DNA from: Candidatus Zixiibacteriota bacterium
Lineage (GTDB): Bacteria; Zixibacteria; MSB-5A5; UBA10806
DNA: 42,987 nt
Direction: 5' to 3'
Assembly: GCA_020344055.1 (NCBI GenBank)
Contig: CP070813.1
Location: 1,151,648 to 1,194,634 of the forward strand
Shown here: positions 12,574-33,966 of the stretch, one piece after another
How the letters are laid out: each line of letters opens with the position of its first letter
Numbering within the stretch: the first letter of the stretch is position 1
The notes under the pieces: model-generated
Databases searched by the model: none
What the model was told of the DNA's origin: nothing
Seen by the model: only the letters and a program-made list of their open reading frames with translations
Position numbers and translations under genes: made by a program

Positions 12574-13626
12574 ATGAGAAAGACCACTTCTCCCTTTGTC
12601 GAAAAAAGGAAATCGAAAATCCATGGTATGGGATTGTTCGCCAGTACCCTTATCCCTAAAGGCACCAGGATAATCGAATATGTCGGCGAAAAAATAACCA
12701 AGGCGGAGTCGGACCGGAGATACCAGAGGGCTCTGGAGAGGCGGCGTAACGGCAACGGCAAAAAGGGGACCGTCTATATTTTTACGTTAAACAAACGTTA
12801 CGATCTTGACGGCGATGTCCGCTGGAACACCGCCAGGTATATAAATCATTCCTGCGATCCCAACTGTGACACCGAGAACATCCATGGCCATATCTGGATA
12901 ACGGCTAACCGGAACATTAAAAAGGGCGAGGAGATATCATATAACTATGGCTATGATGTCGATTCCTGGTACGAGCATCCCTGCCGCTGCGGTTCCAGGC
13001 GATGCGTGGGCTATATCATGTCGGAGGATCGCTGGCCGGTGCTTAAACGTAAGCTGCTACAGATAGAAACCGCCGGAAGACTGGCGGGCAGGCCCGGCAG
13101 GCCCACAACCTCGCCCTATATCGACGTAAGGAGATCGAAAATACACGGTACCGGGGTTTTCGCCAGAAAAGATATCGCCCCCGACACCGTAATAATCGAG
13201 TACGTGGGCGAGAAGATAACCAAGAAGGAATCCGACCGCAGATACCAGGTCGCCTGGGATAAGGCACAAAAAGGCAACGGCGAAAAAGGGACCGTGTATA
13301 TCTTCACGCTTGACGATAAGTACGATATCGACGGCGACATGCCCTGGAATACCGCCGGGTTTATAAATCATTCCTGCGATCCCAATTGCGAGACCGACAT
13401 CATAGACGGCCATATTTATATCATATCCCTACGCAATATTCGGAAGGGCGAGGAGCTGTCGTATAATTACGGTTACGATTTTGAATCCTGGCAGGATCAC
13501 CCCTGTAACTGCGGCGCCGCCAACTGCGTCGGATATATCCTGGACGAGGAACACTGGCCGAAGCTGAAACGGAAGCTCAAGCAGCTCAAAAGCCGCGGCC
13601 GGCGGCAGGTGACGTTTAAGAGATAG
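12574..13626 (+). CDS. Tandem double SET-domain protein methyltransferase
   Basis: This 350-aa protein consists of two complete SET domains in a row (about 12-148 and 184-325) joined by a short Gly/Pro/Arg linker and ended by a basic tail. Each copy has the SET core: KSKIHG[MT]G, IIEYVGEKIT, INHSCDPNC (SAM-binding and zinc Cys; His92 and His266), the catalytic-site SYNYGYD, and a post-SET cluster CxCxxxxC (C137, C139, C144; C311, C313, C318). The four-Cys arrangement is that of eukaryotic histone lysine methyltransferases. It likely transfers methyl from S-adenosylmethionine to protein lysines; the target is unknown. The copies share blocks such as GTVYIFTL and RRYQ, so they arose by internal duplication. 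GGAGA lies about 18 bp before the ATG, which is weak. The gene is alone between two terminators. Confidence 0.9.
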   Translation: MRKTTSPFVEKRKSKIHGMGLFASTLIPKGTRIIEYVGEKITKAESDRRYQRALERRRNGNGKKGTVYIFTLNKRYDLDGDVRWNTARYINHSCDPNCDTENIHGHIWITANRNIKKGEEISYNYGYDVDSWYEHPCRCGSRRCVGYIMSEDRWPVLKRKLLQIETAGRLAGRPGRPTTSPYIDVRRSKIHGTGVFARKDIAPDTVIIEYVGEKITKKESDRRYQVAWDKAQKGNGEKGTVYIFTLDDKYDIDGDMPWNTAGFINHSCDPNCETDIIDGHIYIISLRNIRKGEELSYNYGYDFESWQDHPCNCGAANCVGYILDEEHWPKLKRKLKQLKSRGRRQVTFKR

Positions 13627-29171: not shown

Positions 29172-30026
29172 ATGCCCCTCCAGATCATAAAATCCCCATC
29201 GAAAATGCAGGCGCTGGCCGAGTCGTTAAGGCGCAAAGGCAAAATCATCGGTCTGGTTCCCACCATGGGGGCGATACACGAGGGTCATCTCAGGCTGGTC
29301 GATATCGCCGTAAGAAAATCGGATTTCGTGATCGCCTCGATTTTCGTCAACCCCACCCAGTTCGGGCCGCGCGAAGACTTTTCAAAATATCCCCGCGCCT
29401 TCAAATCCGATTGCCAAAAACTGGAAAAAGCGGGGGTTAATGTGATATTCCATCCCTCGGTAGGCGATATATATCCTGAAAATTACTCGACCTTTGTCGA
29501 CGTCGGCGAGATGACAACCATCCTGGAGGGAACCAGACGGCCGGGGCATTTTCGCGGCGTGGCCACCGTCTGCGCCAAGCTTTTCAATATCACCAAGCCG
29601 CATATCGCCGTATTCGGTCAGAAGGACGGGCAGCAACTGGCGGTGCTAAAGCGGATGGTCCGCGACCTGAATTTCGACCTGAAGATAATCAAAGGCCCTA
29701 TCGTCCGCACTTCCACGGGGGTTGCGGTATCATCGCGGCATTCGTACCTGTCGGCGGAGGGACTTGAGAAGGCGAAGGTGATCTACGGATCTCTGAAACT
29801 CGCCGAGAAACTGATCAGAAACGGCATACGAAATTCCCGGAACATAGAAGCTCATATGAGAAACCTGATTAAATCCGTCCCCGGCGCTAAGATTGATTAT
29901 ATATCATTCAATCGCTGGGATGATCTCCAGCCGGTCAGGAAGCTCTCCGGCCGGGTGATGATTTCGCTGGTTGTTATTATAAAAAACGTCAGGCTTCTGG
30001 ATAACATTATTATCAATGCAAAATAA
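29172..30026 (+). CDS. panC: Pantothenate synthetase
   Basis: The 284-aa enzyme joins pantoate and beta-alanine with ATP to give pantothenate. Motifs: LVPTMGAIHEGHLRLVD (ATP site), SIFVNPTQFGPREDFSKYPR, TRRPGHFRGVATVCAKLFNI and FGQKDGQQLAVLKRM with the Lys/Asp/Gln contacts. The usual READGLAMSSRN reads RTSTGVAVSSRH, a notable change in the strongly conserved ATP/active-site stretch; the SSR core is kept. No strong ribosome site is visible. It is the last operon gene; panD and panE are not in the window. Confidence 0.93.
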   Translation: MPLQIIKSPSKMQALAESLRRKGKIIGLVPTMGAIHEGHLRLVDIAVRKSDFVIASIFVNPTQFGPREDFSKYPRAFKSDCQKLEKAGVNVIFHPSVGDIYPENYSTFVDVGEMTTILEGTRRPGHFRGVATVCAKLFNITKPHIAVFGQKDGQQLAVLKRMVRDLNFDLKIIKGPIVRTSTGVAVSSRHSYLSAEGLEKAKVIYGSLKLAEKLIRNGIRNSRNIEAHMRNLIKSVPGAKIDYISFNRWDDLQPVRKLSGRVMISLVVIIKNVRLLDNIIINAK

Positions 30027-30077: not shown

Positions 30078-31526
30078 TCATATCAAGGGCAACAGCATCT
30101 CCACTACCGCGCCGTTATCGTTATAAAGCTTCAATTCCCCGTTGTGTTCGTCGATAATTTTTTTGATGATGGCGAGCCCCAGACCGGTACCGCTTTTCTT
30201 AGTAGTGATATAAGGGGTATCGATATTCTCCAGTTTCTCAGGCGGGAAGCCGGGGCCGCTGTCCTTTATAACAATTTTGATAATATCATCTTCCTTCTCG
30301 ACCCTGATATCGACCCTTACCGATTCCGGCGAGGCCTCCATGGAGTTCTTTATGATATTTCCGAAAACCCGGCCCATCATCTGCGGATCCATTTCTATCA
30401 TCGGCAGATCTTCGGGAATTGAACCTGTAATTGATACATTATCAAGATTGTCGTGCAGCCTGATAGTCTCGTCAAGAATATCCTTAACCGAGCATTTTCG
30501 TTTCCGGAGTTCCGGCTCTTTGGCGAACGTGGAGAAATGGCCCGCCAGTTCCTGTAGCTCTTTTATCTGGGTATTTATGGAGTCCAGCGCTTTTGTTATA
30601 TCGCTCGGGCCTCCGCCGCTCTCCGCCAGCATCCCTTTCAAACGATACAACTCCACCGTTATGGGAGTCAGGGGGTTTTTTATCTCATGAGCGATACGCC
30701 GGGCCACCTCCCGCCAGGCGGCGAGCCTCTCGGTCTGAATCAGCTTTTTCTGATTTTCGGAGATTTCAAAGGCCATCTCGTTGAACGAACGGGCCAGATT
30801 GGCGAATTCGTCATTTCCCGATACATCTATCCGATAATCGAGATCGCCGGCTCCCAGTCTTCTCGATCCTTCGGTTAACATTAGCAACGGCTTAATCAAC
30901 CGGCCGCTTATCATTCTTGAGATGAAAAAACCGGCAGTCAGTATGAAAATCAAACTTACGCCGGTGACCGCAGATAACAGCTGAATGGAAAAATCCTTAT
31001 ATATTGAAAGGCTGGCAGTTGCCGAGACGGCATTTGATAACTGCCTTCCCCTGCGGGCGTATCCCTCCGGCATCAATATGCCACAACCTTCAACAATGCC
31101 GGAATCAGCCCGCGACATTATCAGAAGAGGATTCCCATCAACTTCCAGATGCTGGAGGCCGGAGACGGAAGGCAGGTCCCCGATAAATTGCGCGTTTATT
31201 CTCAGGGAATCTGACATAGACCAAGTTAAAGAGCCGTTTGATTTTCTATAAACCAAATCCAGTTTTTTTGAATCGCGCCAGCCATCAAACTCTTTTCCCT
31301 TGCTCCAGGGAATTTCACCGGATAGGCATTGTGTGAACATCTCCCCGATTACTGATTCGGAGTCATCGACCATCGATCGGGCCGCCTCAACGCTGGATTC
31401 CAGACCCGAGGCTCCCACTCTATCCAGCGTGGAATTAAGAAGATAGGCCGAGACCAGAAGCAGTATCACCGCCGGGAGCGAGCCGACAGTGAATATGACC
31501 ACGAATATCCTGGTTCTAAACAGCAT
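30078..31526 (-). CDS. HAMP-domain sensor histidine kinase, NtrY-like
   Basis: The 482-aa inner-membrane kinase has a first helix (about 9-30), a periplasmic sensor part (30-180), a second helix (about 180-202, GVSLIFILTAGFFISRMI), a HAMP domain (about 205-255), the phosphorylation helix ARRIAHEIKNPLTPITVELYRL with the H-box His, an N box (GNIIKNSMEASP), G1 (DSGPGFPPEKL) and G2 (GTGLGLAIIKK). The HEIKNPLTPI motif is typical of NtrY-like kinases. No response regulator gene is adjacent, so it signals to a distant partner. The ATG lies 7 bp after a -10 box, suggesting a leaderless mRNA; a GGAGG 15 bp upstream is too far for usual initiation. Confidence 0.93.
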   Translation of the reverse strand: MLFRTRIFVVIFTVGSLPAVILLLVSAYLLNSTLDRVGASGLESSVEAARSMVDDSESVIGEMFTQCLSGEIPWSKGKEFDGWRDSKKLDLVYRKSNGSLTWSMSDSLRINAQFIGDLPSVSGLQHLEVDGNPLLIMSRADSGIVEGCGILMPEGYARRGRQLSNAVSATASLSIYKDFSIQLLSAVTGVSLIFILTAGFFISRMISGRLIKPLLMLTEGSRRLGAGDLDYRIDVSGNDEFANLARSFNEMAFEISENQKKLIQTERLAAWREVARRIAHEIKNPLTPITVELYRLKGMLAESGGGPSDITKALDSINTQIKELQELAGHFSTFAKEPELRKRKCSVKDILDETIRLHDNLDNVSITGSIPEDLPMIEMDPQMMGRVFGNIIKNSMEASPESVRVDIRVEKEDDIIKIVIKDSGPGFPPEKLENIDTPYITTKKSGTGLGLAIIKKIIDEHNGELKLYNDNGAVVEMLLPLI

Positions 31527-32552: not shown

Positions 32553-32659
32553 ACCTCCAAAAAAAGCTGTCCTTAATTGTAATCTATATTTAACTTTTAC
32601 CCTACTCGACGCTAATTCTCCGGGGAGTTTATACCGATATAAACGGTGGGAGGAATACG

Positions 32660-33232
32660 ATGACTGGTTTACCGCCCGGAAGGACGTCGTCTGTAAAAGC
32701 GCAGGATAGGACGTTTATTTTACAGACCGAATTTAAAACCAAACCCAAACGGGCTATAGTTACGTCCGTTTCGCTAGAGGGCCAGGTTATTCATAAGGTC
32801 GAGCGTTCGTATCTTCTGGAGATCGAGAATGACGATGATCTCAGGGAGGCGGAGGCGTCAATCGTATCGCAGCATGAATCCATTGCCAGGAAAATTATCT
32901 CCGATACTGCCGACTTTATAAGGCAGACTAAATCGATTAGAATATCGAGGGCCGACAGACTGGGAATTATTCCCGGTATCGCCTATGTAGCCAACATCGA
33001 GGATAAATTAAGCGGCGATAATCCTCCCATGATCTATAATCAAGCGAAATTAATAACGCAGATCGGCGACGCCATTGCCGCCACATCACGCGTGGGAGCG
33101 TTAAAGCTGGCCGCCATAATAAGCGACCAGGGAAAATTCGTGCTGGACAGGATGGAGGAGGCCGGTCATCTCGTAACTCTAAAAAGCGAAGCCGAAATCG
33201 GTTCGATCATTTCGGAAATAGAAGGCTCATGA
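32660..33232 (+). CDS. Conserved-looking unknown protein, roadblock-like C-terminal half
   Basis: I do not recognise this 190-aa cytoplasmic protein. The first half (about 15-70) contains ILQTEFKTKPKRAIVTSV and QVIHKVERSY, then QHESIARKI. The second half (about 105-190), PGIAYVANIED ... AKLITQIGDAIA ... LKLAAIISDQGKFVLDRM ... HLVTL, has the alternating helix-strand order of roadblock/LC7 domains. There is no signal peptide or membrane helix. GGGAGG gives a strong ribosome site before the ATG. It overlaps the next gene by 4 bp (ATGA), so the two products are made together and may form one complex. Confidence 0.7.
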   Translation: MTGLPPGRTSSVKAQDRTFILQTEFKTKPKRAIVTSVSLEGQVIHKVERSYLLEIENDDDLREAEASIVSQHESIARKIISDTADFIRQTKSIRISRADRLGIIPGIAYVANIEDKLSGDNPPMIYNQAKLITQIGDAIAATSRVGALKLAAIISDQGKFVLDRMEEAGHLVTLKSEAEIGSIISEIEGS

Positions 33233-33966
33233 ACAAAATCCTGGCAAATATCAGGTCGGTTACCGGCGTCTGGGGTACTATAGTCATAGATAAAAAAAGA
33301 GCGTTAACCTACCAGATGCTGCCGGCCAACTTTGAGGCCGAGGCCGTAAAGTTTATCGCGATCCCTACACTCAATCTGGCGCAGACTTGCGATCGGGTAA
33401 TGATCATCGACATGTTTTTCGAGAACGGAAAAGCCAGGCTGTACAACAGGGCCGAGGCGGTGGTGCTGATACTGGGCCGCCTGGATATGAGTTTTGATGC
33501 CCTGGGGGCCATATGCAAGGAGGCCGTTCCCGCGCTGTGCCGACGATTTTCCAGAGGCGAGCTCGCCGATAATACTAATTTAAGAAGCGATCCCAGAGAA
33601 GCCGGTTTCGAACTCCTTTTGAAGGCCATAAATATTATCGCATATAACGCCCAGAGAAAGATAGGCGCCTATCTAGTGACTAAACATCTGAGAAACGCAA
33701 AAGACGAGCTGGTGGAAGATTATCAATTTATGTCGACCATTTCCGTCGATAACAACGGGGTAGCAGGTCTGATTAAGGGATACCTTCCCCACAAAGGAGA
33801 CGATCTTCTCAAAGGCTTCGCCCACTGGGCGAATCTTTTCGTATCTAAATGCGCCTCGTCGTCTGATAAACTCCAACCCGGCGATATCCTCGAACTTACC
33901 CTCGATATAAAGGGTAAGCTGGAATTGACCGGCTTTTATCAGCTTTACGCCGGTATCGGAGCGTGA
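33229..33966 (+). CDS. Unknown protein with N-terminal roadblock/LC7-like domain
   Basis: The 245-aa cytoplasmic protein opens with a stretch (about 5-110) like a roadblock/LC7 domain: VTGVWGTIVIDKKRALTY, AEAVKFIAIPTLNLAQ, RVMIIDMFFENGKARLYN, AVVLILGRLDMS. The rest (about 125-245) is an unrecognised module beginning EAGFELLLKAINIIAYNAQRKIG and ending PGDILELTLDIKGKLELTG. Roadblock proteins in bacteria normally pair with MglA-type GTPases; no GTPase gene lies nearby. It is coupled to the preceding gene by a 4-bp overlap. Function is not known. Confidence 0.65.
   Translation: MNKILANIRSVTGVWGTIVIDKKRALTYQMLPANFEAEAVKFIAIPTLNLAQTCDRVMIIDMFFENGKARLYNRAEAVVLILGRLDMSFDALGAICKEAVPALCRRFSRGELADNTNLRSDPREAGFELLLKAINIIAYNAQRKIGAYLVTKHLRNAKDELVEDYQFMSTISVDNNGVAGLIKGYLPHKGDDLLKGFAHWANLFVSKCASSSDKLQPGDILELTLDIKGKLELTGFYQLYAGIGA

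Follow-up and report, generated by a model that had tools for sequence, protein, structure and literature searches.

RomY, described in 2022 as a partner that stimulates the GAP responsible for front-rear polarity in Myxococcus, is among the published proteins closest to the locus analysed here (PMC9481161). The sections of that report drawn on here describe an M. xanthus protein of 188 aa, with a conserved globular domain at residues 8-89 and a C-terminal part for which they give a partly conserved motif and no domain that has been characterised. According to the same sections, RomY is a low-affinity binder of MglA-GTP and MglB, the GTP turnover that depends on MglB rises about two-fold in its presence, and the N-terminal domain alone retains part of this activity (PMC9481161). 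In the portion of the literature used for the family, an MglB-family protein is called an orphan when no MglA is encoded within four genes of it (PMC4316618). On the strength of that portion, orphan MglB-family protein is the nearest published label for the two proteins described below, neither of which is encoded within four genes of mglA. In the literature searched, no report of a fusion between a RomY N-terminal domain and a roadblock domain was found, nor any paper naming Zixibacteria (in this spelling) together with RomY, MglA or roadblock.

The window, meaning the whole analysed stretch of 42,987 nucleotides, comes from a genome of Zixibacteria, a little-studied bacterial phylum. The genome is a single contig of 3.83 Mb. 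Two overlapping genes, here called A and B, are found in the window with the following features:

32648..32653, plus strand: Shine-Dalgarno-like GGGAGG 5' of gene A, read by eye and unscored
32660..33232, plus strand: gene A, 190 aa, RomY_N-like domain and roadblock domain
32690..32905, plus strand: RomY N-terminal-like domain of A, residues 11-82 (NCBIfam NF053858)
32939..33229, plus strand: roadblock domain of A, residues 94-190 (structure match, profile match, hhalign)
33229..33232, plus strand: ATGA overlap of the A stop and the B start (open reading frame positions)
33229..33966, plus strand: gene B, 245 aa, roadblock domain and helical module without a family
33229..33555, plus strand: roadblock domain of B, residues 1-109 (AlphaFold2 model, structure match, profile match)
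33607..33963, plus strand: mostly helical C-terminal module of B, residues 127-245 (AlphaFold2 model)

An earlier note made from the sequence of this DNA had described the two reading frames with a 4-bp overlap, and both are confirmed. A Shine-Dalgarno-like stretch precedes the start codons of both genes, as read by eye and without scoring. In comparison with a genome of the same genus (G115), A has a dN/dS of about 0.13 and B one of about 0.08; both are conserved proteins under purifying selection.

The N-terminal module of A had been taken as unknown, a view that no longer holds. RomY_Nterm (NF053858) matches A with an E of 1.9e-6, residues 11-82 falling on positions 8-79 of the 83 in the profile, and with 3.3e-7 when residues 1-87 are searched alone. 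The family is found in 36 of 37 A homologues and in none of 14 control genomes. Window A scores 28.2 bits, below the curated cut-off of 50, which is reached in none of the 132 genomes of the phylum. Since no match attains that cut-off, A is not filed as RomY; profile comparison identifies its module as a divergent form of the RomY N-terminal domain. Across the phylum, RomY_Nterm gives 121 matches in 114 genomes (E<=0.01), 113 of which are gene A by their coordinates, and A is the only match in the window's genome. Like RomY, A carries a domain of about 80 residues at the start of the protein with a predicted compact fold (four beta strands and a long helix at residues 8-81 of the AlphaFold2 model), and the two proteins are of similar length (190 and 188 aa). 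A differs from RomY in its score below the curated cut-off, in having a C-terminal roadblock domain and in being coupled to a second roadblock gene, B.

The roadblock domains became apparent through families and models rather than through the single proteins. Robl_LC7 of Pfam does not match window A or B alone, even at E<=10, and single-protein searches of Pfam and the PDB returned nothing useful, the best Pfam hit being DUF503 with an E of 0.62. When the homologues are searched at E<=1, no Pfam family turns up more often than Robl_LC7, with 11 of 37 for A (best 2.1e-6) and 5 of 31 for B (best 0.044). The profile search proposed in the earlier note takes both proteins to solved roadblocks: the C-terminal half of A matches 7f8m (E 6.2e-6) and 7yh1 (E 3.3e-5), and the N-terminal part of B matches 7yh1 (E 6.2e-6). 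The AlphaFold2 models have a mean pLDDT of 91.6 for A and 86.1 for B, with a pTM of only 0.52 and 0.50, respectively, and their structure matches cover mainly residues 91-190 of A and 1-113 of B. Residues 94-190 of A align with the Asgard roadblock 7yh1_A (Z 11.3, rmsd 2.9, 94 aligned, VIA-align). In residues 1-109 of B, the model follows the alpha-beta-beta-alpha-beta-beta-beta-alpha order of the roadblock fold; in window A the second beta strand is absent from the model and a short helix is predicted there. Going by profiles and predicted structures, each protein holds a roadblock domain, C-terminal in A and N-terminal in B, so the earlier observation of roadblock-like stretches in both is borne out despite the missing Pfam match to either protein alone.

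Roadblocks of the MglC and MP1-p14 kinds are both among the fold matches of the A and B models. To our knowledge, neither a RomY_N-like domain nor a B-type helical tail is part of these scaffolds. The locus shares with MP1-p14 (Ragulator) a pair of different roadblock proteins, the A-B heterodimer being putative. An hhalign comparison relates the roadblock domain of A to that of B (81 per cent, 1.2e-5), and both domains are related to a TPR-roadblock protein of the mgl cluster encoded elsewhere in the genome, A with 95.9 per cent (6.2e-9) and B with 95.2 per cent. Against the MglB family, hhalign gives 0.5 per cent for A and 1.3 per cent for B. By these alignments, both domains have their closest relatives among the accessory roadblocks of the mgl cluster rather than in MglB. 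B might nevertheless be a second MglB and itself the GAP that A stimulates, as its predicted fold is effectively tied between M. xanthus MglB (6h5b_C, Z 13.5, rmsd 2.1, 106 aligned) and the best solved roadblock (Z 14.1), both for residues 1-109. We consider this improbable. Besides the low hhalign value, a search with the MglB model NF052242 at E<=1 leaves all 31 B homologues unmatched, and 42 of the 44 genomes with B contain an MglB match distinct from B. The identification of B as MglB was rejected on the hhalign value and the NF052242 search, which at E<=0.1 also gave nothing for window B.

The absence of a GTPase near the pair, as claimed in the earlier note, stands for the window itself. 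No GTPase family was detected by Pfam in 30 other open reading frames of the window and three near neighbours (29172-30026 left out), and an MglA query has no match within the window. The claim does not extend to the genome, where the proposed search for MglA-like GTPases gave a single match (G000:C1:3151848, MglA query), about 1.9 Mb from the pair at 1184307-1185613 and within a cluster of roadblock, MglA and MglB genes:

L065 6591-11597: mgl cluster of the window's own genome

The cluster runs in the order DUF4388, TPR-roadblock, roadblock, roadblock, MglA and MglB, followed by a gene that reads as PilB-like. The MglA-type protein matches Arf, Ras and Gtr1_RagA above their Pfam cut-offs and has a long C-terminal extension, seen in this genome (L065) and in L223-L242. 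Next to it is an MglB relative (NF052242, E 1.9e-28, 99.5 bits, below the model cut-off of 200). The genome of A resembles that of a RomY producer in also holding MglA and MglB, the latter as a match below its curated cut-off. Compared with the MglA/MglB pair itself, A and B share the roadblock fold and a genome with MglA, but they are encoded about 1.9 Mb away from mglA, contain additional modules and resemble the accessory roadblocks in alignments. The order from DUF4388 to MglB is kept in 18 of 20 further genomes, and no second roadblock could be detected in the remaining two. This second roadblock varies in length, with 297-331 aa in 13 genomes outside the order to which the window belongs and 133-160 aa in five inside it. 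The long form in the 13 genomes begins with hydrophobic stretches, as if membrane-bound, as judged by eye.

Gene A is nearly universal in the phylum. Among 132 genomes, A was found in 121, MglA in 120 and MglB in 122, counting a few matches that are short pieces at contig ends. A polarity-type GTPase module consisting of DUF4388, TPR-roadblock, two roadblocks, MglA and MglB is suggested as a core trait of Zixibacteria. Both A and MglA are absent from five genomes where 1.0 would be expected (Fisher p 0.0009, which ignores phylogeny and incomplete assemblies). A without detected MglA occurs in seven genomes and MglA without detected A in six, two of which (G110 and G125) are 98 and 100 per cent complete. 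As the genomes are related and some are incomplete, the co-occurrence of A and MglA is only supportive.

Gene B is less widespread and was found only behind A. The B profile matches 54 of the 132 genomes, 10 of them only by an N-terminal match to the gene beside mglA, which leaves 44 with B. Secondary matches of the B profile number 14, of which 13 lie in the mgl cluster (12 directly beside mglA, one being the TPR-roadblock of the own cluster) and the remaining one, in G114, is short with two stops. In all 44 genomes, B stands directly behind A on the same strand, including one in which A is cut by a contig end (G001) and one in which B runs over a contig end (G098). The finding that the earlier note had named as speaking against the module, genomes in which the two genes are always separate, was not encountered. 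In 39 of 40 distinct pairs, the distance from the A stop to the B start is between -20 and +23 nt, taking as B start the start codon nearest to the profile start; the exact spacing of -4 nt recurs in 10 of the 40, and the exception is G104, whose A spans two frames. One genome (G111:C47, L016 1244-1788) has B split into two open reading frames, roadblock and helical tail, through either fission or an assembly error. The earlier step from the 4-bp overlap to a complex of the two proteins gains from this tight coupling and from the occurrence of B only behind A. As a general rule for A it fails, because 77 of the 121 genomes with A gave no detectable B; in at least three of these 77 (G070, G086 and G100), A reaches the end of its contig.

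We suggest that A is a co-GAP of MglA/MglB in which a RomY domain has been joined to a roadblock domain, that B is its partner, and that the pair belongs to the MglA/MglB system of Zixibacteria. Resting on sequence comparison, this reading has a probability of about 0.57. The earlier note had proposed an unrecognised switch. The front domain of A is a divergent copy of a domain that helps to switch off MglA elsewhere, RomY being a known co-activator of MglB in the sections consulted (PMC9481161), and we therefore take the pair as probably a distant component of a switch already known rather than a switch of a new kind. Most likely, the RomY domain of A would contact MglA-GTP and a roadblock dimer and speed GTP hydrolysis, and the roadblock domain of A would tether it to its partner. 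In genomes with B, this partner would most likely be B, produced by coupled translation, and the helical tail of B may position the complex or tune it. Where B is absent, the partner of A might be an accessory roadblock protein encoded beside mglA. We infer a physical A-B complex, its co-GAP activity, its location, the role of the B tail and a link to polarity or type IV pili. The co-GAP reading has to contend with the lack of chromosomal linkage between A/B and mglA, with the RomY_N score below its cut-off and with the genomes in which only one of MglA and A was detected. A phylum-wide relative of RomY fused to a roadblock offers a natural test of how RomY and a roadblock dimer are seated on MglA.

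Set beside M. xanthus, the pair suggests that RomY has changed from a separate protein of low affinity to a tethered one. Zixibacteria might have rebuilt the low-affinity, concentration-gated MglB/RomY GAP complex as a dedicated A-B roadblock heterodimer, in which the RomY domain joined to one roadblock would be produced together with a second roadblock bearing a new helical module. An anchored unit, and not the concentration of MglB, would then determine where the GTPase is inactivated. We put this forward tentatively, as a possible but doubtful extension.

A and B could instead form a heterodimeric roadblock scaffold for another NTPase or for a membrane process without MglA, with the RomY-like fold no more than a small shared domain reused as an adaptor. 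Such a role would be in keeping with the match of A below the curated cut-off and with RomY_N-like modules in other settings, namely the eight RomY_Nterm matches outside gene A and a response-regulator protein of Schekmanbacteria. We regard the scaffold as unlikely, given that the genome holds a single MglA-type GTPase, that A and MglA are both near-universal in the phylum and that the nearest roadblocks are those of the mgl cluster. The eight matches are Zixibacteria frames of 373-389 aa and are weak (3.2e-4 to 7.4e-3). Three were read and appear as RomY_N followed by TPR in about 375 aa, with TPR confirmed by Pfam in one:

L213 325-1449, minus strand: RomY_N-TPR-like protein
L214 1075-2193: RomY_N-TPR-like protein
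L216 906-2036: RomY_N-TPR-like protein

The gene in L216 has an SLBB protein as neighbour, the one in L213 a neighbour with a weak GNVR match below the cut-off, and the one in L214 a neighbour that has no Pfam match and reads as chain-length-determinant-like. The Schekmanbacteria protein (L154 2146-3516) combines a receiver domain, DUF4388 and TPR matches below their cut-offs and a weak RomY_N-like stretch (0.0027).

A pattern scan with the N-terminal profile of A, which is biased to this lineage, yielded 62 loci in named records. The records comprise 52 of Zixiibacteriota, Zixibacteria or GN15, five named only 'bacterium', four of Calditrichota, Calditrichaeota, Ignavibacterium or the FCB group, and the single Schekmanbacteria record with its other architecture. 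Of these 62 loci, 46 show a forward hit to nrdJ, 38 one to acpS and 32 one to pyrE, the names being a reading of open reading frames and many contigs ending nearby. A position of A between nrdJ and acpS-pyrE is common in Zixibacteria (L093-L153) and is not found in the window's genome. This linkage would be the basis for tying A to its neighbours (the ribonucleotide reductase gene nrdJ upstream, acpS and pyrE downstream), for example in regulating nucleotide or lipid supply, which we hold to be highly improbable. In the window, the pair follows a creatininase-family gene and precedes a DinB gene, five B loci (L145, L146, L147, L149 and L150) have nrdJ on the other strand at a distance of 1.9-3.2 kb, and neither domain suggests such a pathway. 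As the window locus differs and these five loci have a distant nrdJ on the opposite strand, the linkage is not needed for A.

The C-terminal module of B remains without a known family, as the earlier note had stated, with no match in Pfam, among the B homologues or for the B profile. Compared with the roadblocks of the mgl cluster and MglB, the tail reaches at most 2.9 per cent in hhalign. Kinship with the tail of the DUF4388 protein encoded in that cluster was rejected, as a local hhalign score of 14.9 stands against column-shuffled controls of up to 16.5 (n=100).

Elsewhere in the window, a HAMP-histidine kinase is encoded at 30078-31526 on the minus strand. The SET domain is better known from eukaryotic methyltransferases; a strong match to it, in two stretches with 180.5 bits, is found at 12574-13626.
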